This document shows, piece by piece, positions 10,374-23,191 of a stretch of DNA of 23,831 nt (the stretch's first letter is position 1; each line of letters starts with the position of its first letter). A program made the translations under genes and the position numbers. Under the pieces are notes generated by a model. It searched no databases. It was given only the letters and a program-made list of their open reading frames with translations, and was not told where the DNA came from. Source of the stretch: a virus; the IMG/VR virus record IMGVR_UViG_3300007735_000508, positions 1 to 23,831 of that record; one strand, written 5' to 3'.

Positions 10374-12872
10374 ATGGATAAAATAACAGTACTATTTCCT
10401 GGAGGATTTAAACCTTTAACCGGCGCGCATTTAGCATTAGCACAACGTTATGCTGAATTGCCTGAGGTAGGTCGAGTAATCATGTTGATTGGCCCAAAAG
10501 AACGAGATGGAATCACTCGAGAAAAAACCATGGAAATGTTCAACTTGATGAACACTAATCCAGATATTGTAATGCAACCCACAGAATTCAATTCGCCTAT
10601 CATGGCCGCATACGAATACTTGTTTGCACTGCCACAAGATGCTACAGGTCGATATGCGATGGCTGCATCCAAAAAAGGAGATGATTATGTACGTGCAATG
10701 GATTTCGTTCCTAATGTAGATAAATATGCTACAATTGGAGATAAAAAAGGACGTACAATTCCTTCGGGTATTGATGCTACGTTATTAGCAGTAGATGTAG
10801 AACCACTAAATTATGAATCGGGTGAACCTATATCAGCAACTAATGTGAGAACTGCAATTCAGAATCGAGACTATGATGCATTTCGAGTTTCATATCCAGA
10901 TCAAGACGATGCTACGGTAAAAAATGCTTGGCAAATTTTAACGGGAGTTCAAGAAGCAGCAATGTTTTCAAAGGAATGGTGGAAACTTAATTTGCAAGAA
11001 GATGTAGAAGAAGTCGTAGAATCGATGATGTTTCCAAAAGAGAAAAAACGTCACGCTGCAAAAATTAAACATCTTCGTGCATTTTTAGATAAACATCGCG
11101 GAGAATCATTTGTATATGATTTTGATAAGTTTGCAAAAACTGTGATGGGTGCAAAACTTCTAGAAAGCATCATTTCAGAAAATTATATTACTCGTGATGA
11201 ATTACGACAAATAGAGCCTACTATCGATAGATTTTTTAAGCAATATGGAATTGATGTAGATTTCCAAGGCAAGTTTACGCATTTCATAGATCGTTTAAAT
11301 GATCCACGTAATGAAGGAACAATTCGTTTAGAAGATTTAGAAAACCTATTTCGAGACTTGGCAGATGAATATGGTCCACAAATAGTACGACAAATTCAAC
11401 AAGGAAAACCAACAGCAGTAGAATCTGATTATCAGTTCGATGTTCCAATTCATATGCCATTTCAATTAGAGTTTGACCGTCAATTGGGACAAATTAAATT
11501 GATTCCTCGCACTATAAAAGCACAACGAAGAAACTGGCAAACCAATGATCCAAATGATGTAATTTATCGCATTGAATCGGCAATGGGTAAAGGACAACTT
11601 TTAACAGAAGGCGGTGCAGCCGGACATATGGCACATCCATGGGATGATCATGGATTAACATTTGGCGACATGAAAGAAATTGTTGCACGTGCATTGTCAG
11701 GCCGTTTAGATATGGAAGAAGCTGTCACTGAAAAAACTGACGGCCAAAATATTCAAGTTACGTGGAAAGATGGACAACCAGGTTTTGCTCGTAACAAAGG
11801 CACTATAATTAATCCAATGACTCCAGATGTGTTGATTGCAGATTTTCAACGCAAACAACAAGAAACCATCGCAAAGAATGGAGCAGATGCTGGAGCAAAT
11901 TATCAACGCGTTGTTGATGCATATCGTGCATGTGCCGAAGATTTAACAGAAGCATTGCAACGCATACCTGCAGATCGTTTAGCACAAATATTCAAAAATG
12001 GACGTGTATTTGCTAACATGGAAATAATCTTTCCTGCAACTAAAAATGTAATTTCATATGATAAAGCACATCTTCAATTTCACAATCTAGTTGAATATGA
12101 TGAAGCTGGTAATACTGTAGAAACAGATTTAGCCGGCGGTGCTATGATGCAACAAATCATACAAGATGCAAATGCTCATATGCAAAAAACATTTTCATTC
12201 ATTCCACCGCAACGCATCAAAATGGGACGAGTTTATGATTTTGAAGATCAACAAGCGGCGTTCTTTTCTGAAATAGAACAACTAGAAAACCGTTACGGTT
12301 TAAAAGACCAAGACATGATACGAGAATATCATTATGCATGGTGGCGAGATGTAATACAAAGCAAATCACAAGAATTAAGATATGCGATTCCAGAAGAAGT
12401 ATTACGTGCATTAGTAATGCGTTGGTCATTCGATGATAAATCTACAAATATTGCCGTGCTTAAAAAACAAATTGATAACGCAGAATTTGCCGCATGGGTA
12501 ACGGAATTTGATAAAAAAGATTTCAAAGCGTATCGCAAACAAAATTTAGAACCATTCGAATCCATATTCTTAAGATTAGGAGTAGTGGTTTTACAGAATG
12601 CTGAAAATTTCCTTGCTGCAAATCCTGATAAGACAGTTCAAGAAATCAAAACGGAACTAGCACAACTTATCAAAGACTTACGTGCTAAAGGAGATGCTGC
12701 TACAATATCTAAATTGGAATTGGAATTACGCCGTATACAAAGGTTAGGAGGATTTGATTCCATAGTACCAGCAGAAGGAATAGTATTTGTTTATGGCGGG
12801 CATACATATAAAATGACAGGTGCATTTGCTCCGGTAAATCAGTTGTTAGGAGTATTAAAGTACGCAAGGTGA
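10374..12872 (+). CDS. Bifunctional enzyme: HxGH-type nucleotidyltransferase fused to a lysine-adenylating polynucleotide ligase
   Basis: An 832-residue protein with two enzyme domains. Residues 1 to about 200 form an adenylyl/cytidylyltransferase fold: PGGFKPLTGAHL (9-20) corresponds to GxFxPxHxGH with the first His replaced by Thr (T16, H19), and ISATNVR (153-159) to the ISSTxxR motif. From about residue 420 to the end is a covalent nucleotidyltransferase: EKTDGQN with nucleophile K454 (motif I), NMEIIFP (motif III-like), EGIVF (E801, motif IV) and YKMTG (K813, motif V). The long region between (about 210-410) is helical and unassigned. Known relatives of the first domain make NAD, CoA, FAD or CDP-alcohols; known relatives of the second join RNA or DNA ends. 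Substrates cannot be read from sequence. It lies directly downstream of fibre genes behind a candidate late promoter. In T4, RNA ligase 1 (gp63) also promotes tail-fibre attachment. Confidence 0.82.
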   Translation: MDKITVLFPGGFKPLTGAHLALAQRYAELPEVGRVIMLIGPKERDGITREKTMEMFNLMNTNPDIVMQPTEFNSPIMAAYEYLFALPQDATGRYAMAASKKGDDYVRAMDFVPNVDKYATIGDKKGRTIPSGIDATLLAVDVEPLNYESGEPISATNVRTAIQNRDYDAFRVSYPDQDDATVKNAWQILTGVQEAAMFSKEWWKLNLQEDVEEVVESMMFPKEKKRHAAKIKHLRAFLDKHRGESFVYDFDKFAKTVMGAKLLESIISENYITRDELRQIEPTIDRFFKQYGIDVDFQGKFTHFIDRLNDPRNEGTIRLEDLENLFRDLADEYGPQIVRQIQQGKPTAVESDYQFDVPIHMPFQLEFDRQLGQIKLIPRTIKAQRRNWQTNDPNDVIYRIESAMGKGQLLTEGGAAGHMAHPWDDHGLTFGDMKEIVARALSGRLDMEEAVTEKTDGQNIQVTWKDGQPGFARNKGTIINPMTPDVLIADFQRKQQETIAKNGADAGANYQRVVDAYRACAEDLTEALQRIPADRLAQIFKNGRVFANMEIIFPATKNVISYDKAHLQFHNLVEYDEAGNTVETDLAGGAMMQQIIQDANAHMQKTFSFIPPQRIKMGRVYDFEDQQAAFFSEIEQLENRYGLKDQDMIREYHYAWWRDVIQSKSQELRYAIPEEVLRALVMRWSFDDKSTNIAVLKKQIDNAEFAAWVTEFDKKDFKAYRKQNLEPFESIFLRLGVVVLQNAENFLAANPDKTVQEIKTELAQLIKDLRAKGDAATISKLELELRRIQRLGGFDSIVPAEGIVFVYGGHTYKMTGAFAPVNQLLGVLKYAR

Positions 12873-12903: not shown

Positions 12904-13677
12904 ATGGCTCAAAAACACAAAAGCAAATACAAAGCACCAAAGGATTTGGAAAAATCACAAAAACCAAAACCTCGCAAAGATTTAAAAGATTACACTGAAG
13001 ATGATAAGGATGGAAAACTGAATCCAAAATCTACTAAAGATAAACAACTCAATGTGCTTCGTAAAACAGATAAAGCTGTGCAAGATGATGGAAAAATGAT
13101 TCCTAAATATGAAGCAGATGATCGTTTATACAAAGACATCGAAGATGGTGATTGGGATCCGAAGACTGCTGCAAAACGTCTTAAAAAACATCAAGATGCA
13201 GAAGAAAAGGATGTTGCTGATGTGTTAAAAGACAAAATTGAAAACTTAACTCGCGAACAAAAAGAACGAGTAATCAGAGAGTATGTGCGCAGAAAAATTG
13301 CAAAGATATTGTCTGAACAAGCAGACCCAGCACCAGCTCCAGAAGAAGAAATTCCTGCAGATGCACCAGCACCAGATGCTGCAGCACCAGAAACACCTGC
13401 ACCTGCAGTACCAGAAGCACCAGCCGCAGAAACACCAACTGAACCAGCAATTGCTCCAGAAGAACAAGAAGCTATTAATATACAAAAATTTATTGATAGT
13501 TTAAAGTCAGATGGAACTGTTAAACAAGTTACTGCATTGATGAATGTGGCGGATAAGTTGACTAAAGAAGTAGATCCAAAAGATGCTAAAACATTTTACG
13601 TGTTACTTCGCAAAAAAATAATACAAAACTTAACAAAACTTGCGCAAACAGATACATCGGCAGAACAACCCGAATAA
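12904..13677 (+). CDS. Hypothetical charged protein with a Pro/Ala/Glu-rich linker
   Basis: I do not recognise this 257-residue protein. The first 100 residues are very rich in Lys and Asp and probably disordered. About residues 95-140 form a charged helix (DVLKDKIENLTREQKERVIREYVRRKIAKIL). Residues of roughly 142-186 are a Pro/Ala/Glu linker. A compact helical C-terminus follows (IQKFIDSLKSDGTVKQVT and on). There is no signal peptide or membrane segment. Domain-linker-domain layout is typical of phage structural or scaffolding partners. It sits five genes upstream of nothing obviously related and four genes before the terminase. It might be a head or neck accessory protein or a diverged small terminase, but nothing in the sequence proves either. 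A candidate late promoter and a weak AAAGG precede it. Confidence 0.7.
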   Translation: MAQKHKSKYKAPKDLEKSQKPKPRKDLKDYTEDDKDGKLNPKSTKDKQLNVLRKTDKAVQDDGKMIPKYEADDRLYKDIEDGDWDPKTAAKRLKKHQDAEEKDVADVLKDKIENLTREQKERVIREYVRRKIAKILSEQADPAPAPEEEIPADAPAPDAAAPETPAPAVPEAPAAETPTEPAIAPEEQEAINIQKFIDSLKSDGTVKQVTALMNVADKLTKEVDPKDAKTFYVLLRKKIIQNLTKLAQTDTSAEQPE

Positions 13678-15050: not shown

Positions 15051-16634
15051 ATGGCTCAACAGCAAAACATAAAGCAAATAATACAGCAACAGTACATGCA
15101 ATGTGCTAAAGATCCTGTGTTTTTTATGCGTAATTATTGTTATATTCAGCATCCGAAGCGAGGTAAAATCAAATTTAATTTGTATGAATTTCAGGAAGAT
15201 GCTTTAACCGAATTACGAGATAATCGATACAATGTAATATTAAAATCACGGCAGTTAGGTATATCAACTCTTTCTGCCGGATTTGCTCTTTGGTGCATGT
15301 TGTTCAAAGAAGATTTCAATGTATTGGTTATTGCAACCACTCAAGAAGTAGCAAAAAACCTAGTAACAAAAGTACGGGTGATGCACGACAATCTTCCAAG
15401 CTGGTTAAAAGGAACCATTGAAGCTGATAATAAATTGTCGCTTAAATTTAAAAATGGTTCACAAATCAAAGCCGTATCATCAGCAACCACAGGAGCACGT
15501 TCAGAAGCATTGTCACTACTAATCATAGATGAGGCTGCGTTTATTCGTAACATTGAAGAAATTTGGATAGCATCACAAGCAACACTATCAACAGGTGGTG
15601 GTGCTATTGTATTATCTACTCCTAATGGTGTTGGTAACTGGTTTCATCAAACGTGGGCAGATGCTGAGGCAGACATAAATGGATTTCACACAATTCGACT
15701 ACGTTGGGATGTGCATCCAGAGCGAGATCAGAATTGGCGTAACGAACAAACAGCGTTATTAGGTGAACGTGGTGCGGCACAAGAATGTGATTGTGACTTC
15801 GTATCATCTGGTCACACAGTTGTAGATGGACCATTGCTATTAGAATATGAAGCAAAATGCACAGATCCTATAGAAAAACGTGGATTTGATGGCGCATATT
15901 GGATTTGGGAATATCCTAACTACGAACGCGATTACATGGTAGTAGCTGACGTTGCACGGGGTGACGGAGGTGACTGGTCTGCATTTCATGTATTAGATGT
16001 TGAGTCGGTAACGCAAGTTGCAGAGTTCAAAGGTAAAATACCACCCAATGAATTTGGTAACATGTTAGTATCAGTTGCAACAGAATGGAACAATGCATTG
16101 TTAGCCATTGAAAATGCAAATATTGGTTGGGCTGCAATTCAGCCAGCACTAGACAGAAATTATCAAAATTTACATTACACATATAAAGATGACGGATACA
16201 CTGATGCAGATGTGCAATTGAAAAAGGGATATGATATGAAAGACAAGACCCAAATGGTTCCTGGAGTATCAACCACAACACGCACGCGACCATTAATGAT
16301 ATCTAGTTTAGAAATGTATATGCGAGAACGTACTCCGATTATACGTAGTCGTCGACTAATTCAAGAACTACTTGTGTTTGTTTGGCTGAACGGAAAAGCA
16401 CAAGCACAACAAGGATACAATGATGACCTTGTGATGTCGTTTTGTATCACATTATGGCTTCGCGACACCGCACTTAAACTTCGCCAGCAAGGTATTGACT
16501 TAAATAAACGCGCGTTATCGTCTTTTCAAAAATCAAGTCCAGTTATTTACACAGGTAACAGAAACAACAATGACACCGGATGGAACTGGAACCCAGGCTC
16601 AGGTGATGAATCTCTAACCTGGTTGATTAAATAA
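15051..16634 (+). CDS. 17: Large terminase subunit, T4 gp17-like
   Basis: This 527-residue protein is the DNA-packaging motor: an ATPase that threads DNA into the prohead and a nuclease that cuts concatemers. The adenine-binding YEFQ (45-48), Walker A KSRQLGIST (65-73), Walker B LLIIDEAAF (D160, E161) and coupling motif LSTPNG are in order. The nuclease domain shows DVARGDGGDW (D300, D308) and YNDDLVMS (D458/D459). In place of the usual GKT/GKS lysine the Walker A has GIS, with the lysine at the front (K65), as in several phage terminases. It is shorter than T4 gp17 (610 residues). It starts 3 bases after the previous stop in the same TAAGTTATGGC context found at 1163, without Shine-Dalgarno. 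The T4 tail sheath and tube genes (18, 19) that follow 17 in T4 are absent before gp20. Confidence 0.96.
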   Translation: MAQQQNIKQIIQQQYMQCAKDPVFFMRNYCYIQHPKRGKIKFNLYEFQEDALTELRDNRYNVILKSRQLGISTLSAGFALWCMLFKEDFNVLVIATTQEVAKNLVTKVRVMHDNLPSWLKGTIEADNKLSLKFKNGSQIKAVSSATTGARSEALSLLIIDEAAFIRNIEEIWIASQATLSTGGGAIVLSTPNGVGNWFHQTWADAEADINGFHTIRLRWDVHPERDQNWRNEQTALLGERGAAQECDCDFVSSGHTVVDGPLLLEYEAKCTDPIEKRGFDGAYWIWEYPNYERDYMVVADVARGDGGDWSAFHVLDVESVTQVAEFKGKIPPNEFGNMLVSVATEWNNALLAIENANIGWAAIQPALDRNYQNLHYTYKDDGYTDADVQLKKGYDMKDKTQMVPGVSTTTRTRPLMISSLEMYMRERTPIIRSRRLIQELLVFVWLNGKAQAQQGYNDDLVMSFCITLWLRDTALKLRQQGIDLNKRALSSFQKSSPVIYTGNRNNNDTGWNWNPGSGDESLTWLIK

Positions 16635-16679: not shown

Positions 16680-18518
16680 ATGGCGTCATTAAGAAAACGT
16701 TTACAAAACCTGTTTAAAACCAACGTTATTGTCCGAGCTTACGGCAAAGACCAAGTACGTGTTGTTGATACAAACAGATTGCAATCCGCAGGTAACTTAG
16801 CTCAAAGTAAATTAGCAGACCGATATACTCGTTTGCATGGTGCAAATAAACATCGTGTAGGTGGAATGGGTGGATATGACTCAAATTATTACATGAGTCA
16901 AAACCGTATGCAACTCTATGCGGATTATGAAATGATGGATAAAGATCCAATCATCTCTGCAGCACTTGATATATATTCTGATGAATCTACATTGGAAGAT
17001 CAATTCGGTGAAATCCTAACTATAAAAAGTGATAAGACAAACATACAAAAAATACTTTACAATTTATTTTATGATGTTTTGAACATTGAATTCAATTTAT
17101 GGACATGGATTCGCAATATGGCCAAATATGGCGATTTCTTTTTAAAATTAGATATTGCCGACACATATGGCGTTATCAATGCTCGTCCATTTTCAAGTTA
17201 CGAAATGGAACGTTGGGAAGAATTCAATGAAGCAACTGGTGAATATGAAATTAAATTTAAAAACATTGCTTCAGAACAAATGACATATGATGTGTTTGAA
17301 ATTGCACATTTTCGCATGTTATCAGATTCTAACTTCTTACCATATGGTAAATCAATGTTAGAAGGTGCTCGTAAAGAATTTCAAAAATTAACAATGATGG
17401 AAGATGCGATGCTTATTCATCGTATAATGAGAGCCCCGGAAAAACGTATCTTTAAAATTGATATTGGTAATATTCCACCAAATGAAGTTGATAGCTTCAT
17501 GGAACAAATTATCAATAAAATGAAAAAAATTCCACACGTAGATCCACAAACTGGAAATTACAATCTTCGATTCAATATCAATAACATGTTAGAAGATTAT
17601 TACTTGCCCGTGCGCGGAGGTCAATCTTCAACTACAATTGACACATTGCCTGGTATGACATTCACAGGAATGGAAGATATTGAGTATGTTAAAGATAAAA
17701 TGATGGCTGCACTTAAAATTCCTAAACCATTCTTAGGTTATAGTGAAGCAGTTGAAGGTAAAACTACGTTAGCATCAATGGATATTCGGTTTGCTAGAAC
17801 CATTGAGCGCATACAAAAGATTGTTACCTCCGAACTAACAAAAATTGCCATTGTGCATTTATATTCACAAGGCTTTGAAAATGAAGATTTAATTGGATTT
17901 GAATTAAAATTAACAGCGCCATCTATTATTTATGATCAGCAAAAAGTAACATTGATGAATGAAAAGATTCAGTTAGCTAACACAATGAAGGATAGCAAAT
18001 TAGTTTCCGATCGTTATATCTATGAATTCATATTCAATATGTCTGAAGATCAATGGCTTCAAGAGCGAGTTGATGTTATTGAAGATCTTAAACTTCGATT
18101 CCGTCAAAATCAAATTGAACAAGAGGGCAATGATCCAGCAGTTACTGGAGTATCATTTGGTACACCACATGATTTAGCATCAATGCACATGTCCAGCGAC
18201 GAAGTAGAAGAAAAAGATTTAGGAGGTCGCCCACCAGAAGGAATCAAATACGGACAACATCAAAATGAATTTGGATGGGATCCAACTGGTGCTAAGACTA
18301 TTAAACAAACATTTAATCCAGAAAATCAAGCAAACACATATCAGCCAGATCCTAAATTTAAAAACATGGCCGGCAATGTTGCAGTAGAAAGCTTTGTGAA
18401 ACGTATTCAAACAAGAGATAAGAAATTTGGTATTATATCAGAATCAATGAAATCAGCTAAATTATCAGAAACAGATAAAGATGCTGGTACATTTTTAGAT
18501 GAGACTAATATTTTGTAA
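16680..18518 (+). CDS. 20: Portal protein, T4 gp20-like
   Basis: This 612-residue protein matches T4-type portals, the dodecameric ring at the capsid vertex that nucleates the prohead, binds the terminase and conducts DNA. Family segments include SAALDIYSDE (about residue 97), RAPEKRIFKIDIGN and MEQIINKMKK. These are followed by LEDYYLPVRGG, TLPGMTF and ALKIPKPFLGY. It is longer than T4 gp20 (524 residues) because of a polar C-terminal tail (from about 490) with IKYGQHQNE and repeated Asn/Gln-rich stretches. The ATG at 16680 has no Shine-Dalgarno and an A-rich leader. It follows the terminase by 45 bases containing an ATATTTAT box, so it may head a new transcription unit running through the prohead genes. 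Confidence 0.96.
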   Translation: MASLRKRLQNLFKTNVIVRAYGKDQVRVVDTNRLQSAGNLAQSKLADRYTRLHGANKHRVGGMGGYDSNYYMSQNRMQLYADYEMMDKDPIISAALDIYSDESTLEDQFGEILTIKSDKTNIQKILYNLFYDVLNIEFNLWTWIRNMAKYGDFFLKLDIADTYGVINARPFSSYEMERWEEFNEATGEYEIKFKNIASEQMTYDVFEIAHFRMLSDSNFLPYGKSMLEGARKEFQKLTMMEDAMLIHRIMRAPEKRIFKIDIGNIPPNEVDSFMEQIINKMKKIPHVDPQTGNYNLRFNINNMLEDYYLPVRGGQSSTTIDTLPGMTFTGMEDIEYVKDKMMAALKIPKPFLGYSEAVEGKTTLASMDIRFARTIERIQKIVTSELTKIAIVHLYSQGFENEDLIGFELKLTAPSIIYDQQKVTLMNEKIQLANTMKDSKLVSDRYIYEFIFNMSEDQWLQERVDVIEDLKLRFRQNQIEQEGNDPAVTGVSFGTPHDLASMHMSSDEVEEKDLGGRPPEGIKYGQHQNEFGWDPTGAKTIKQTFNPENQANTYQPDPKFKNMAGNVAVESFVKRIQTRDKKFGIISESMKSAKLSETDKDAGTFLDETNIL

Positions 18519-18560: not shown

Positions 18561-19415
18561 ATGAAGAAATTGAAACATTCGAAGTATAAAAATACTGGCA
18601 TTCTATTTGAAATGCTAGTACAAAAATTAACTTCTGAAACATTGTCATCGGATAAATCTGTTACAATTGATATAATCAAAAAATACTTTGGTAAAAACAC
18701 GGAATTATCAAAAGAATTACAACTTTACAATGCATTAGTTAAAGAGCAATTCAGGAGTGAAGCACAAGCATTAGATTATATACGGACTGTTAAATCTGCG
18801 TATGATAAACTAAATCAAACGGTGTTGAAACGACAAAAGTATAATCTGGTTAAAGAAATATCAGAAAAGTTTAATTTCACGGATATGACAAAAATACATA
18901 TCGGAAATTACAAAGTTTTAGCATCAATTAACATGATTTTTGAACATGCTGAGTCAGAAAATCCAAAACAAATAATGGAATGTAAAACTGCTATCATTGA
19001 TAACAGCCTTAATAAAAAGACCGCAGCACCACAAAAAGATCCAATTATTGAATCATTTGAATCACAACCAAAAGAAATTCGTTTGTTAACGTATAAAATT
19101 CTTATTGATAAATTCAATGAAAAATATTCTACGGCGTTAAATGAATCACAAAAACAACTTTTAAACAAATACATCACACACGTTAATGATACTACTGCGT
19201 TACGAGAATACGTTCAAACAGTGATACCAAAAATTAAACGTGAACTTTCCGCGCAGTCAAAACATGTAACTGATCCTGCAACTAAAATCAAAGTAGCAAA
19301 ATTATCAGAAATGCTTTGCAATGTAGAATCAATTAAAACGATAAAAGAATCGCATATTTTGAATCTTTTACGTTATTTTGATTTGGTTAAAGAATTAAAA
19401 GGAATTCATCAATGA
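18561..19415 (+). CDS. Conserved T4-like prohead-region hypothetical protein
   Basis: A 284-residue protein located between portal and protease, where T4 has the small prohead core genes 67 and 68. Its start, MKKLKHSKYKNTGILFEMLV, resembles a hypothetical protein that I recall at this place in other marine T4-like phages. It is helical and Lys/Glu-rich throughout with no signal peptide, membrane segment or enzyme motif. A core or scaffolding assembly role is inferred from position only. It overlaps the next gene by four bases (ATGA), which indicates translational coupling. It begins 42 bases after the portal stop, behind an ATATTTAT box. Confidence 0.75.
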   Translation: MKKLKHSKYKNTGILFEMLVQKLTSETLSSDKSVTIDIIKKYFGKNTELSKELQLYNALVKEQFRSEAQALDYIRTVKSAYDKLNQTVLKRQKYNLVKEISEKFNFTDMTKIHIGNYKVLASINMIFEHAESENPKQIMECKTAIIDNSLNKKTAAPQKDPIIESFESQPKEIRLLTYKILIDKFNEKYSTALNESQKQLLNKYITHVNDTTALREYVQTVIPKIKRELSAQSKHVTDPATKIKVAKLSEMLCNVESIKTIKESHILNLLRYFDLVKELKGIHQ

Positions 19416-20158
19416 AATTAATTTTGGCAGAAATGAAACAAAAATTCATGGAAATACAAGATTCATACTGCGATTCCTGTGATCGTCCTACGGATAAATG
19501 CGTTTGCGATGAAGAAGAAATTGATGAACAAAATGTAACTGGCGCTGTTCCTGGTTTCAATGTGCCCGGAGCATTTCGCGACACGGTTAAAAAAGTTGAT
19601 TACGGCAGTGGCGTAGAAGTTAAAGAATCAATCAATGTTAAACCTTCATTTGATTGGAAAACAACGGGATATCAAAGACCAGAGTCAGATGAAGAAATAT
19701 TCAATGATAAATTTCCATTTTCGCCCGATGAACAATATTGGTGGCACTCAGATCAAGAGTTTCCAGTAAAGTTTTATCCAGATGGTGAAGGAACTAATAA
19801 TATCAAAGACACAACGACTCAGATTGGTAATTTACCACAACATGGTTCACGTAAACAAATATCTGCTTTAAAAGTAGAAGATGTGATGGAACGCAAGTAT
19901 GAGGAACTAATCGAAGGATATCGAACATTTGCAACTGCGGATAAAGATGTGTCTCCGGAGAAAAAAGTAAATCGCACCATACAAGAAATTGCTAAAAAAT
20001 TGCATGAGATAGATGAACTTGTTAAACACAATACACGTTTAAAAACAGAAGCAGGAGTAGCAGCTTCATCATATGGTAACCGAACTAAAAAAGCATTATC
20101 AACAATATCAGAACGATTAATTAAAATATCAGAGCGAGTAAGGGCGTTAGGAGAATAA
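19412..20158 (+). CDS. Hypothetical protein with an N-terminal Cys cluster
   Basis: This 248-residue protein is unrecognised. Near the start it has C20, C23, C30 and C32 (YCDSCDRPTDKCVCDEEE), a plausible zinc knuckle followed directly by an acidic run. The middle is aromatic and Pro/Asp-rich (PFSPDEQYWWHSDQEFPVKFYPDG, split around 100-125) and the last 90 residues form charged helices. It overlaps the preceding gene by ATGA, and AAAGGA ends 8 bases upstream, so start choice is good. It is followed by gp21 with one base between stop and start. Position suggests a prohead core or assembly partner like T4 gp67/68, without sequence proof. Confidence 0.72.
   Translation: MKLILAEMKQKFMEIQDSYCDSCDRPTDKCVCDEEEIDEQNVTGAVPGFNVPGAFRDTVKKVDYGSGVEVKESINVKPSFDWKTTGYQRPESDEEIFNDKFPFSPDEQYWWHSDQEFPVKFYPDGEGTNNIKDTTTQIGNLPQHGSRKQISALKVEDVMERKYEELIEGYRTFATADKDVSPEKKVNRTIQEIAKKLHEIDELVKHNTRLKTEAGVAASSYGNRTKKALSTISERLIKISERVRALGE
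20149..20153 (+). promoter_or_regulatory. Shine-Dalgarno-like AGGAG before the protease gene
   Basis: AGGAG ends 6 bases before the ATG at 20160, an ideal spacing. It lies in the last codons of the preceding gene (Leu-Gly-Glu-stop), so it may be partly coincidental. It is notable because most genes here have none. Confidence 0.5.
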
Positions 20159-20159
20159 C

Positions 20160-20792
20160 ATGACAAAACAACTTATAGTAGAATATATGCCATTCCGTCC
20201 AATTGGTTCATTAACTGAATCAAGCGGTGCTGCATATGGAATACCAGGCGGTTTTGTAGTGCAAGGAGTTTTACAACGTGCAGGAGCAAAAAATCAAAAT
20301 GGTAGAATCTATCCAAGAAACATATTAGAACGCGAATGTCGTAGATATGAACAAGAGTTTATCAATCAGCACCGAGCATTAGGAGAATTGGATCATCCAG
20401 AATCTTCCGTAGTAAACTTAAACAACGTTTCTCACAATGTTTTAAAAATATGGTGGGACGGTGATGACTTAAAAGGTGCAGTGCAAATACTAGAAACTCC
20501 TTCTGGAAAAATTCTTAAAGAACTTTTCAAAGCCGGCATCACATTAGGTATTTCATCTCGTGGATTAGGTAGCGTAAAAGAATTACGCAGCGAGGGAACT
20601 GTGGAAGTGCAAGAAGATTTTGAATTGATTTGTTGGGACTTTGTATCAAATCCATCAACCCATGGGGCTTTTATGCGCCCGACACATATGCATGAATCGG
20701 TAGATAAAACAATTAAACCAAATAAATACGCTCGTGTAAATGATATCATTACATCAATTCTATGCGAAGACGGTAAATGTAGAATAATATAA
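20160..20792 (+). CDS. 21: Prohead core protease, T4 gp21-like
   Basis: This 210-residue protein is a serine protease of the herpesvirus-assemblin-like fold that is packaged in the prohead and cleaves the scaffold and capsid proteins during maturation. The catalytic His lies in GELDHP (H79) and the nucleophilic Ser in GISSRG (S132/S133). Conserved surroundings include NQNGRIYP (45-52), LVKE-like PSGKILKEL and VQEDFELICWDFVSNPS. Length matches T4 gp21 (212 residues). It begins one base after the preceding gene's stop with AGGAG 6 bases upstream. Its substrates, gp22 and gp23, are encoded downstream in this window. Confidence 0.95.
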   Translation: MTKQLIVEYMPFRPIGSLTESSGAAYGIPGGFVVQGVLQRAGAKNQNGRIYPRNILERECRRYEQEFINQHRALGELDHPESSVVNLNNVSHNVLKIWWDGDDLKGAVQILETPSGKILKELFKAGITLGISSRGLGSVKELRSEGTVEVQEDFELICWDFVSNPSTHGAFMRPTHMHESVDKTIKPNKYARVNDIITSILCEDGKCRII

Positions 20793-21208: not shown

Positions 21209-21694
21209 ATGAATATGTTTAAACGACTGTATAAAGAATTTTTCGGAATAACAGAACAAACAAAACAAAAATCTGGGCTGTTTACTGTAACAGATAAAGA
21301 TGTTGCAAATATAAAAGCCATGGCTACTGCTGCACAACAAGTAAAAAAAGCATTGGGCGAAGAAGAAATGGTCGATGAAGCACAACTTATCAATCACATA
21401 GCAGATTATCGAGGAGGCGTTGAATACGTATTGCGAGATCCATCCACTGCACAAAATGTAGCAAATGATATACGTGATTGGGCAGAACGCAAAGGTTTTA
21501 CCATAGTTAAACAAAATATTTCAAAATCAGGTAAAGTAGGATATTTCTATTTTCGATTAGGAGAAGATCCAGGTCGCGAATCACAAAGAATACAAGGATA
21601 CATAGCACAAGTTCCAGAAATTAAACACTTTCGATTCAATGTGCGAGGAGAACAACCTAAACCAGAAACACCACAGACCCCGGCAGAAATTTAA
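21209..21694 (+). CDS. Hypothetical protein in the prohead block
   Basis: A protein of about 161 residues from the ATG at 21209 (MNMFKRLYKEFFG). The frame is open further upstream through a TTG at 21176, but an in-frame ATG after AAG at 21206 is the more likely start; an ATG at 21215 is an alternative. The sequence has an amphipathic N-terminus, then a helix region (ANIKAMATAAQQVKKAL) and a small alpha/beta part (RKGFTIVKQN, GKVGYFYFRLG) ending in a Pro/Gln-rich tail. No known family is recognised. It lies between a small helical protein and phage bS21. A sequence TTGGAT-17 bases-TATAAT lies at 21168-21196, but it is not trusted as a promoter. Confidence 0.65.
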   Translation: MNMFKRLYKEFFGITEQTKQKSGLFTVTDKDVANIKAMATAAQQVKKALGEEEMVDEAQLINHIADYRGGVEYVLRDPSTAQNVANDIRDWAERKGFTIVKQNISKSGKVGYFYFRLGEDPGRESQRIQGYIAQVPEIKHFRFNVRGEQPKPETPQTPAEI

Positions 21695-21712
21695 TATTAT
21701 TAAACAAGTTAT

Positions 21713-21958
21713 ATGAATAAAAAACAAAAACAACATCAACAAATCGTACCTGGTAATTCTTTAGCAGTGCAAGTAGTAGGTACAGAATCAATTGATTTAG
21801 CACATGCACTTAAAGCATGGAAACGCAAAGTTAAAAATGCCGGAGTATTAGAAGCCGTTAAAGACCGCAGAGAATTTATTAAGCCTAGTGTAATTAAACG
21901 TCAGCAAAACATTAAAGCATCATATATTCAAATGATACGCGACTTAAACAACGATTAA
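21713..21958 (+). CDS. rpsU: Phage-encoded ribosomal protein bS21
   Basis: This 81-residue protein matches bS21, a small-subunit protein near the 3' end of 16S rRNA that influences start-site recognition. The core from about residue 19 reads ALKAWKRKVKNAGVLEAV then REFIKPSVIKRQ, lining up with the family's ALxxxKRxxxxxGVLxEVxxRxxxxKP. The IKPSVxKR and KASYIQ (Y71) segments resemble Bacteroidota bS21. There is a short N-terminal extension (about 17 residues, Gln/Lys-rich) beyond most bS21. In Flavobacterium johnsoniae bS21, with bS18 and bS6, holds the 16S 3' tail and masks the anti-Shine-Dalgarno (published). The gene has no Shine-Dalgarno (AAGTTATATG) and ends just before a strong terminator. 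Phage bS21 has been reported before; the pairing with SD-bearing head genes here is discussed under findings. Confidence 0.9.
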   Translation: MNKKQKQHQQIVPGNSLAVQVVGTESIDLAHALKAWKRKVKNAGVLEAVKDRREFIKPSVIKRQQNIKASYIQMIRDLNND

Positions 21959-21982
21959 ACGATTATTCAAAAATTATTTTTA

Positions 21983-22009
21983 AGCCCTTACTTCGGTAGG
22001 GGCTTTTTT
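21983..22009 (+). terminator. Rho-independent terminator after bS21
   Basis: AGCCCTTAC (21983-21991) and GTAGGGGCT (21996-22004) form a 9-pair stem with one G-U, closed by a stable UUCG tetraloop and followed by a run of T (22004-22009). It begins 24 bases after the bS21 stop and separates the 18561-21958 block from the gp22-gp23 unit. Confidence 0.92.
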
Positions 22010-22022
22010 ACTGTCCGAAACT

Positions 22023-22048
22023 TTTTTTACGGTTTTTTACGGTTTTTG
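22023..22048 (+). repeat. T-rich tandem repeat TTTTTTACGG
   Basis: Two adjacent copies of TTTTTTACGG (22023-22032, 22033-22042) plus a partial third (TTTTTG, 22043-22048). They lie between the terminator and the ATATTTAT box before gp22. The 10-base period could present the T-tracts on one helix face as bent DNA or a protein-binding array, or act as an upstream promoter element. Confidence 0.7.
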
Positions 22049-22059
22049 TAAACACCTTC

Positions 22060-22075
22060 ATATTTATTGTAGAAT
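22060..22075 (+). promoter_or_regulatory. Candidate late promoter element (ATATTTAT box) before the gp22-gp23 unit
   Basis: ATATTTATTGTAGAAT lies 109 bases before the gp22 ATG, directly after the T-rich repeats. Unlike the other copies it has no AAAGAA tail and is followed by a long leader. A promoter is expected here because a strong terminator precedes it and the two most abundant head proteins follow. Confidence 0.55.
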
Positions 22076-22138
22076 ACGCTATCATTATATAGCGTCACCT
22101 ATTTTAAAAATATTCTATTAAGATTTCAAATAATCTTA
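22076..22138 (+). promoter_or_regulatory. Two hairpins in the gp22 leader
   Basis: ACGCTAT (22076-22082) pairs with ATAGCGT (22089-22095) around a 6-base loop, and TAAGATT (22119-22125) pairs with AATCTTA (22132-22138) around a 6-base loop. Both stems are perfect 7-mers. The first lies where a transcript from the 22060 box would begin, so it could protect the mRNA 5' end. The second ends 18 bases before the Shine-Dalgarno. Confidence 0.6.
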
Positions 22139-22156
22139 TTTCCAAAAAACAAATTT

Positions 22157-22162
22157 AAGGAG
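22157..22162 (+). promoter_or_regulatory. Strong Shine-Dalgarno (AAGGAG) of gp22
   Basis: AAGGAG ends 6 bases before the gp22 ATG (22169). This is the only canonical site in a non-coding leader in the window and stands out against a genome where most genes have none. Confidence 0.85.
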
Positions 22163-22168
22163 AAACAA

Positions 22169-23179
22169 ATGGCAAAATCTGATTTGCTAAAACAAGCTAT
22201 TGCTGATGCACGTGCTGTAAAAGAGACCGCATTAGCAAACGCAAAAATTGCCTTACAAGAAGCTTTTGCTCCACGTCTTGAAAGAATGTTAGCTACTGAG
22301 CTATCAAATGAAATGGAAGACGATGAGGAATTGCCAGCAGAAGAACCAGCATTAGATGATGCAGGTGCTGATATGCCGGCAGATGACACAATGGGAGCTG
22401 AAGATGATTTAGGTGGGCCAGAAGACGTTGGTGATTTATCAATCGATGTTGATGGTGACGGAGAATTCGATGAATTCGATATCATGTCTCCAGAAGAAGG
22501 TGGTGCACCTGAGGGTGAAGAAGAAATGCCAGCATCTGATGAAGATTTAGAAGGTGAGTACAACGAAGATTTGAATCTTGAAGCAATTATTCGTGAATTA
22601 GAAGAAGATCTAAACGAAGAAGCAGAAGATGAAGAAGAGGCAGAAGAACCTACGACAGAAGGATATGATATGCCAAAAGATGATGATCTTTCAGAAGACT
22701 TTAACATCGATGAAATCATTGAATCTATTCTTCGCGAGGAAGAAGAGGAAGAAGAGCTAGAAGAAGGACGTGATGAAGGTCATGAAGGAACTAATGGCGA
22801 TGAACTTAAGTTAGCAAACGAGCAACTTGAAGAAGCATACAAAACGGTTCGTGAATTGAAAAAAATCATCAACGAAGTAAATCTTCTAAATGCAAAACTT
22901 CTTTACACAAACAAATTGTTCCGCAATTTTGAGTTGTCAGAAGGTCAAAAAATGAAAGTGATTGAAGGATTTGATCGTGCTGGTAACACAAGAGAAGTAA
23001 AATTAGTATTTAGTACATTGGCTGAATCATTCAATCGCCCTGCTAAAAAACGTGTAGTTAAAGAGTCATATGCATCTAAACCAGCTGCATCAACTGCTCC
23101 TAAAAAAGAAACTACTCAAGTATTAAGCGAAGGATTTGAATTAGCTAATCGTTGGAAAAAATTAGCAGGATTGCTATAA
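22169..23179 (+). CDS. 22: Prohead scaffolding core protein, T4 gp22-like
   Basis: This 336-residue protein is the main internal scaffold around which the capsid forms and which the gp21 protease degrades. Its first 45 residues (LLKQAIADARAVKETALANA) are typical of T4-like gp22. A very acidic middle (about 50-205) with long Glu/Asp runs follows, then a helical segment (KLANEQLEEAYKTVRELKK) and the C-terminal NRWKKLAGLL. Position directly before gp23 matches T4. Residues 93-104 (DVDGDGEFDEFD) fit an EF-hand-type calcium loop, which may be chance in such acidic sequence. A strong Shine-Dalgarno, a hairpin leader and an ATATTTAT box precede it. A long minus-strand ORF here is a shadow of the acidic codons. 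Confidence 0.93.
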   Translation: MAKSDLLKQAIADARAVKETALANAKIALQEAFAPRLERMLATELSNEMEDDEELPAEEPALDDAGADMPADDTMGAEDDLGGPEDVGDLSIDVDGDGEFDEFDIMSPEEGGAPEGEEEMPASDEDLEGEYNEDLNLEAIIRELEEDLNEEAEDEEEAEEPTTEGYDMPKDDDLSEDFNIDEIIESILREEEEEEELEEGRDEGHEGTNGDELKLANEQLEEAYKTVRELKKIINEVNLLNAKLLYTNKLFRNFELSEGQKMKVIEGFDRAGNTREVKLVFSTLAESFNRPAKKRVVKESYASKPAASTAPKKETTQVLSEGFELANRWKKLAGLL

Positions 23180-23185
23180 CAAAGA

Positions 23186-23191
23186 AAAGGA
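23186..23191 (+). promoter_or_regulatory. Weak Shine-Dalgarno (AAAGGA) of gp23
   Basis: AAAGGA ends 8 bases before the gp23 ATG at 23200, in a purine-only stretch between gp22 and gp23. It supports the chosen start. Confidence 0.6.

Follow-up and report, generated by a model that had tools for sequence, protein, structure and literature searches.

Introduction

Genes for the ribosomal protein bS21 are common in phages (PMC6375957), and no other ribosomal protein gene is as frequent among viruses. In Flavobacterium johnsoniae a pocket formed by bS21, bS18 and bS6 occludes the anti-Shine-Dalgarno sequence (Jha et al., 2021, as summarized in PMC9976891), Tyr54 of bS21 stacks on A1534 of the 16S tail, and either deletion of the bS21 C-terminus or the substitution Y54A increases the translation of messages with a Shine-Dalgarno (SD) sequence (PMC9976891). 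In E. coli the N-terminal region of bS21 contacts the SD through Arg17 and Arg21 (PMC10123108). Here we analyze a phage bS21 gene, and the SDs of the genes around it, in the IMG/VR virus record IMGVR_UViG_3300007735_000508. The complete record of 23,831 bases, hereafter the window, is a piece of a T4-like myovirus with its genes coded on the plus strand. We find that genome-wide SD use follows the presence of an N-terminally extended bS21 across the relatives of this phage.

Several described systems resemble the locus in part. The lake Bacteroidetes phages of Chen et al. (2022, PMC9723584) express bS21 late, late replacement of host bS21 was inferred, and the protein was proposed to favor phage mRNAs at that stage. 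As in the window, their bS21 gene lies near the terL, portal, protease and capsid genes, the residue at the Tyr54 position is aromatic and the N-terminus is divergent. However, their bS21 gene is antisense to the structural genes, whereas that of the window is on the same strand and ends a unit, and in the text of that paper we found no analysis of SDs on phage genes. Their genomes (clades a-e) measure 293-331 kb; the largest contig related to the window is 160 kb, has no end repeat and may be a fragment. The rpS21 of huge phages (Al-Shayeb et al., 2020, PMC7162821) also has a basic N-terminal extension, proposed to act in ribosome binding or in preferential initiation on phage mRNAs, but the main text ties SDs to rpS1 rather than rpS21 and draws no link between the extension, host type and SD use. 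The bS21 of Pelagibacter phage HTVC008M enters ribosomes, as shown in E. coli (Mizuno et al., 2019, PMC6375957), but its alphaproteobacterial host has no known anti-SD occlusion and no SD link was reported. F. johnsoniae bS21 itself (McNutt et al., 2023, PMC9976891) shares the protein, the ribosomal site and the SD/anti-SD logic with our case, but rpsU carries an extended SD (-14 to -21 kcal/mol) and is autoregulated, whereas the phage bS21 gene is SD-less and moderate SDs stand on many other phage genes. Phage bS21 and its extensions are thus already known, and the link with SD use is the new element: in the literature searched we found no report of SD use in Bacteroidota phages following an extended bS21.

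SDs in the window and its close relatives

We measured SDs as pairing with the 16S tail, computed for every start in the window and for orthologs from up to 80 related contigs, whose starts were set by homology; only distinct leaders were counted. Windows placed 25 nt further upstream served as mock. Genes were called by a simple script that uses no ribosome-binding-site information, and the contigs are mostly fragments.

The original prediction, made from the window alone, had noted a perfect AAGGAG before gp22, AGGAG before gp21 and AAAGGA before gp23, and all three are found, pairing with -8.2, -8.4 and -6.5 kcal/mol respectively; the ten starts that it had listed as SD-less indeed score only 0 to -2.2 kcal/mol. 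Pairing of -6 kcal/mol or better occurs in 37/37 distinct leaders of gp22, 34/34 of gp21 and 41/43 of gp23. Because mock windows at the same genes hold almost no SDs, this conservation is more than chance would produce, though at gp21 part of it may be coding, since the SD lies within the 3' end of the upstream open reading frame (ORF). SD motifs of at least 5 nt are absent from the distinct relatives of bS21 (0/46), terL (0/19), portal (0/20) and ORF 13693 (0/18). The further claim that the genome otherwise lacks SDs was wrong: the window has additional SD-like sites at 12904 (AAAGG), 14327 (AAGGA) and 19412 (AAAGGA), and 20-30% of the relatives' genes, about a quarter, carry SDs.

SD use in phages with extended, plain or no bS21

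Natural controls for this pattern exist in the form of a cultured relative without bS21 and of phages with a plain, host-like bS21. The former, Flavobacterium phage vB_FspM_immuto, is the closest cultured relative and was grown on Flavobacterium sp. LMO8. It shares the gene order of the window, and the two portals are 50% identical. No bS21 was found anywhere in its 160 kb genome, and none of its gp21, gp22 and gp23 leaders carries an SD; the leaders of bS21-less relatives are A-rich, G-poor and likewise without SD. In Microcystis phage Mel-JY01 bS21 sits at the same position and most genes have SDs.

Pooled over loci, SDs precede 364 of 612 genes in the window clade (mock 87) and 381 of 603 in a wider clade with extended bS21 (mock 69), whereas the counts are 46 of 563 (mock 66) for phages with plain bS21 and 93 of 854 (mock 139) for immuto-like phages without it. 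The proportion of SD-led genes is therefore 59-63% with an extended bS21 (mock 11-14%), 8% with a plain one (12%) and 11% with none (16%). The same division appears on long contigs, where motifs of at least 4 nt were compared with mock. All contigs with extended bS21 have an excess (G003 55 vs 19, G001 40 vs 13, G026 30 vs 13, G043 36 vs 12, G045 38 vs 14, G048 39 vs 6, G047 24 vs 7, G049 46 vs 16, and Mel-JY01 25 vs 3 and 17 vs 2). The bS21-less contigs show no enrichment, with 8 vs 26 and 3 vs 14 for immuto, 13 vs 21 for G024, 11 vs 13 for G025, 13 vs 10 for the jumbo contig G013, 2 vs 4 for L213 and 2 vs 3 for L216, and those with plain bS21 are not enriched (G059 11 vs 9, G054 13 vs 28, G056 7 vs 23). 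Corresponding counts are 4 vs 5 for Cellulophaga phage phi14:2 and 8 vs 14 for crAss001. Host genes of Flavobacteriales show SD depletion, with 30 vs 53, and E. coli, included as a control, shows an excess of 17 vs 5. The spacing is canonical: in phages with extended bS21 the GGA core peaks at -12 to -8 relative to the start (about 5-17 per 100 genes over a background of about 1), and the profile is flat in phages with plain or no bS21.

Capsid-based searches added 160 loci. A gp23 SD of at least 5 nt is present in 65/69 window-like loci with bS21 and in 0/53 immuto-like loci without it (0/76 if uncertain cases are included), and one of at least 4 nt in 46/48 Mel-like loci with bS21. That phage bS21 as such accompanies SD use is ruled out by the SD-poor phages with plain bS21; it is the N-terminal extension that separates SD-using from SD-less bS21 phages.

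Which genes carry SDs

With motifs of at least 5 nt, the counts against mock are 42 vs 7 for G003 (160 kb) and 37 vs 6 for G001 (110 kb), the latter being about 82% identical in DNA to the window over the longest aligned stretch. In 27 of the 93 ortholog pairs of these two genomes both genes carry an SD, and in 47 neither gene does. The SD set comprises capsid, scaffold, head-tail connector, tail sheath, tail tube and baseplate hub, but also PhoH, the single-stranded DNA-binding protein (SSB), UvsX, GroES and a transcriptional regulator. The identified SD-less genes are late sigma, clamp loader, helicase, DNA polymerase, GTP cyclohydrolase, primase, SbcC-like, terL, portal and bS21; ribonucleotide reductase and QueE have an SD in just one of the two genomes. 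SDs thus mark mostly high-copy proteins of several expression classes, and the conserved SD-less genes are mostly low-copy enzymes. The original prediction had linked bS21 to a contrast in SD strength between head genes and the rest. The link itself has held up at the level of whole genomes and a contrast does exist, but it runs mainly between abundant proteins and low-copy enzymes: confinement to head genes is ruled out by the SDs of SSB, UvsX, GroES and tail genes.

The bS21 protein and its message

The identity of the gene as bS21 is certain. Its product passes the Pfam PF01165 cut-off of 27 with 43.9 bits (E=4.8e-13), and its best solved relative is F. johnsoniae bS21 (PDB 7jil, E=3.2e-9). 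Of the span 21713-22171 first given for it, the start is right, but the gene stops at 21958 and 22171 lies within gp22. AlphaFold2 predicts helices at residues 26-43, 45-52 and 58-79 (mean predicted local distance difference test score 83.7, predicted template modeling score 0.48); these helices are confident, whereas the extension is modeled as a less certain short helix (residues 3-8, low confidence) and a strand.

Extended phage bS21s have approximately 15 additional N-terminal residues, MNKKQKQHQQIVPGN in the window, that are absent from 80 host bS21s and from the plain phage bS21s. The window-clade consensus, MNKKQKQHQxIVPGN, is basic, and its first nine residues, which include no Phe, Tyr or Trp, are nearly invariant among 55 window-clade bS21s whose bodies are only about 60% identical. 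Since the extension codons vary synonymously (AAT/AAC, CAT/CAC), the constraint acts at least partly on the protein. Changes in the body accompany the extension. The Asp24 position is Asp in 80/80 host bS21s, whereas every window-clade protein (100%) and 94% of those of the wider extended clade have Lys there; Lys51, present in all hosts, is retained by 23% of the window-clade proteins. At the Tyr54 position, 99% of host and 97% of plain phage bS21s have Tyr, the window clade has Phe (65%) or Tyr (35%), and the wider extended clade has Arg (54%) or Tyr (43%).

Tyr71 of the window does align with F. johnsoniae Tyr54, as the original prediction had it, but the suggestion that masking of the anti-SD is simply preserved through this residue is doubtful, because phages whose plain bS21 keeps Tyr54 are SD-less. 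Together with the Phe, Tyr or Arg at this position, the predominant loss of Lys51 and the Asp24 to Lys change in the extended proteins, this would fit an altered, rather than a preserved, handling of the 16S tail. The C-terminus of the window protein is Flavobacteriales-like in the alignment, some wider-clade bS21s have a general-type C-terminus, and Mel-JY01 bS21 differs in the sequence of its N-terminal region and may be just loosely comparable. Another type of extended phage bS21 (MRTFNNNYNKPRR..., general-type C-terminus) was observed in L485, L493, L463, L464, L466 and L468, and its loci are also SD-rich (44 vs 3 mock). Two bS21 genes occur in a single bacterial genome, that of Lutibacter sp. 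B1 (G061, the genome of L267). The idea that the phage also supplies its own bS18 was dropped, as PF01084 had no match in 11 records.

The bS21 message differs from that of the host. In Flavobacteriales, host rpsU has an extended SD with a mean of -15.8 kcal/mol (79 leaders; mock -0.95), whereas phage bS21 leaders average -2.1 kcal/mol. Even a 4-nt SD is found on only 1/46 bS21 genes in the window clade and 3/39 in the wider clade, unlike the 59-63% of SD-led genes in the same loci, and an extended SD, which goes with autoregulation in Flavobacteriales, is present in 0/46 of the window clade. Such a gene would escape host-type autoregulation. Its SD-less state would fit a converter that has to be made first by unconverted ribosomes.

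Hosts and promoters

The Bacteroidota promoter pattern TTG-N17..23-TAnnTTTG, counted upstream of genes against the reverse strand, was found 20 vs 1 times in Mel-JY01 and 12 vs 2 times in G045 (controls: Flavobacteriales 66 vs 3, E. coli 0 vs 0), so that the SD pattern of these two is not accounted for by hosts of another phylum. Mel-JY01 (PP395634.1; L103, L433-L434, L530-L534) was deposited as a Microcystis phage, yet is related to immuto; given this kinship and its many textbook Bacteroidota promoters, the recorded host is doubtful. An early promoter, GCTTGACACGCA...TAnnTTTA, is conserved in the window clade. The strict TAnnTTTG occurs neither in this clade nor in immuto and hence was unusable there; only the relaxed form TTG-N18..22-TAnnTTT[AG] is enriched (17 vs 2 and 14 vs 2 in the window clade, 27 vs 8 in immuto). 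An early promoter GCTTGACACGCAN..[CT]TAnnTTTA is highly conserved in L082 at 8.7-17 kb (G003) and in L095/L094 (G001, reversed); it is preceded by AAAAAAAGTTT runs, and closely downstream are leaders ending AAGAGAGAT before the start codon.

A search of 20 kb of DNA against 298 Flavobacteriales genomes gave chance-level short matches and the assembly G185, and neither 396 Bacteroidota nor 398 Flavobacteriales genomes yielded a close phage in protein searches. G185, a Flavobacteriales assembly, contains no fewer than five distinct T4-like phages, of which some have bS21 and a gp23 SD and others do not (contigs C19, C35, C58, C59, C67 and C78; L438, L439, L447-L450). Because it mixes several such phages its binning says nothing about the host, and it was dropped as a host pointer. 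In a scan of bacterial bS21s with a sequence pattern, nearly all of the top matches listed were Bacteroidota, but the pattern is partly derived from F. johnsoniae, which biases it as a host test.

Lineages

A capsid tree with 133 rows contains two superclades. In the first, with 66 rows, bS21 was not detected and gp23 has no SD; the other is mostly positive for both. For the main bS21-less cases bS21 was sought over the whole records and none was detected. The bS21-bearing superclade also includes members without bS21: L213 and L216, which are devoid of the SDs, and a jumbo clade (L238, 297 kb), which is not SD-enriched genome-wide. The SD statistics above ignore relatedness, and the proper unit is the lineage: counted in this way, the gain belongs to one superclade, in which three lineages without bS21 show no SD enrichment.

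Proposed mechanism and alternatives

We give a probability of roughly 0.58 to the reading that the extended bS21 takes the place of host bS21 and that normally SD-blind ribosomes can then use the SDs of the phage, the bS21 gene itself being SD-less. The protein would be made from a message that SD-blind host ribosomes can translate, and would displace the loosely held host bS21 on the 30S platform. The extension and the altered contacts beside the anti-SD could then allow pairing between the 16S 3' tail and SDs of moderate strength (AAGGAG, AAAGGA), and converted ribosomes would favor SD-bearing phage messages, mostly for abundant proteins. The comparison shows the protein with its features, the conserved gene-specific SDs with their canonical spacing, and the co-occurrence of the two across phages; that the protein enters ribosomes, that the anti-SD is released and that SD messages are then preferred are steps that we infer. 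Whether the protein would amount to a switch of the host initiation rule from SD-blind to SD-reading, with the phage genome written for the changed ribosome, we put at even odds. The pattern sharpens the general idea of favoring phage mRNA into the prediction that SD-blind Bacteroidota ribosomes regain SD reading through the extended bS21. If true, this would be a specialized ribosome of viral making that responds to a start signal of its own, and it could serve as a tool to control translation in Bacteroidota.

Several points weigh against this reading. At -6 to -9 kcal/mol, the SDs of the phages fall far short of that of host rpsU in strength, and the aromatic residue kept at the Tyr54 position throughout the window clade argues for masking. 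The bS21-less jumbo clade has a weak AGGA/AAGGA on gp23. L201 has a bS21 with a short N-terminus and no gp23 SD (genome-wide borderline, 9 vs 3), and L162, whose 13.8 kb contig holds no bS21, has AAGGAG on gp22. A single origin, in one superclade, is probable for the extended bS21 and the SD use that goes with it, which leaves few independent contrasts: the tree requires a minimum of 4 bS21 changes, 2 of them forced by well-supported branches, and a pair test on it is without power. Finally, the host of the window clade is one that we infer.

The clustering of bS21 status and of SD status on the capsid tree would also be expected if phages with extended bS21 infect SD-using lineages, such that SDs follow the hosts and bS21 serves otherwise, for instance in ribosome competition or defense resistance. 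We consider this unlikely. The failure of DNA and protein searches in Flavobacteriales and Bacteroidota to find a host for the window clade is in its favor, as is the general-type C-terminus of some wider-clade bS21s, but Mel-JY01 and G045 are SD-rich with textbook Bacteroidota promoters, the early promoters of the window clade share their relaxed form with those of a Flavobacterium phage, and the window bS21 has both its closest solved chain in F. johnsoniae and a Flavobacteriales-like C-terminus, while Flavobacteriales genes are SD-depleted.

Distinctly less probable is that masking is preserved, the phage bS21 keeping ribosomes replete and the SDs serving those bS21-lacking ribosomes that rise when bS21 is short. 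The conserved aromatic residue would suit this, F. johnsoniae ribosomes without bS21 do prefer SD messages (PMC9976891), and with an SD-less gene bS21 would be made by replete ribosomes. It leaves unexplained, however, why SDs are absent both from bS21-less phages of similar hosts and from phages with a plain, Tyr54-bearing bS21, and 54% of the wider clade has Arg at that position. The purine motifs might also not be SDs at all, but act in mRNA processing or stability or reflect the composition of A-rich leaders. T4-like phages have GGAG-type RNA-processing signals, recognized in T4 by RegB, and the motifs do lie in very A-rich leaders. Yet their spacing to the start codon is canonical and narrow, the differing cores (AAGGAG, AAAGGA, AGGAG) are all complementary to the anti-SD, and the A-rich, G-poor leaders of bS21-less relatives have no SD, which makes this explanation very improbable.

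Gene layout of the window

The features discussed are collected in Table 1. The window has the terL-gp20-gp21-gp22-gp23 order and the homologous proteins of T4-like Immutovirus-type phages, and before terL it codes for an endonuclease, a primase, an SbcC-like protein, and tail and unknown proteins. As originally described, bS21 is the last gene ahead of the gp22 unit; the terminator-like hairpin between them indicates that bS21 ends the terL-gp20-gp21 unit and that gp22 opens a new one. By a loose criterion, a hairpin with T-run lies 3' of bS21 in 77/77 clade loci.

Table 1. Positions of features in the window.
Feature	Position	Strand	Evidence or remark
terL (gp17)	15051..16634	+	PHROG 2, E=1.9e-45; SD-less
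portal (gp20)	16680..18518	+	PHROG 213, E=2e-61; SD-less
SD AAAGGA of ORF 19412-20158	19398..19403	+	at least 5 nt in 22/26
SD AGGAG of gp21	20149..20153	+	within 3' end of upstream ORF
gp21 prohead protease	20160..20792	+	PHROG 207, E=2e-53
SD-less translation initiation region of bS21	21691..21712	+	pairing scan and relatives
phage bS21 gene, 81 residues, N-terminally extended, Bacteroidota-type C-terminus	21713..21958	+	PF01165
bS21 N-terminal extension MNKKQKQHQQIVPGN	21713..21757	+	alignment with phage and host bS21s
Lys41 codon (host Asp24 position)	21833..21835	+	alignment
Tyr71 codon (F. johnsoniae Tyr54 equivalent)	21923..21925	+	alignment with PDB 7jil
terminator-like hairpin (21982-22005) and T-run	21982..22011	+	closes terL-gp20-gp21-bS21 unit
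SD AAGGAG of gp22 (scaffold/prohead core)	22157..22162	+	pairing scan and relatives
gp22-like prohead core protein	22169..23179	+	synteny with immuto and Mel-JY01 gp22
SD AAAGGA of gp23	23186..23191	+	pairing scan and relatives
gp23 major capsid protein, cut by contig end	23200..23831	+	homology to immuto and Mel-JY01 gp23

The gp22 of the window has no PHROG match, and an Rfam search of the window gave none. The stretch 22012-22156 forms a long gp22 leader with repeated ACGGTTTTT and a hairpin ACGCTATCATTATATAGCGT (22076-22095). The protein encoded at 10374-12872 has a nucleotidyltransferase-like N-terminus (GGFKPLTGAH) and, further on, a ligase-like KTDGQN motif; its homologue in Mel-JY01 is annotated as cytidylyltransferase-like.

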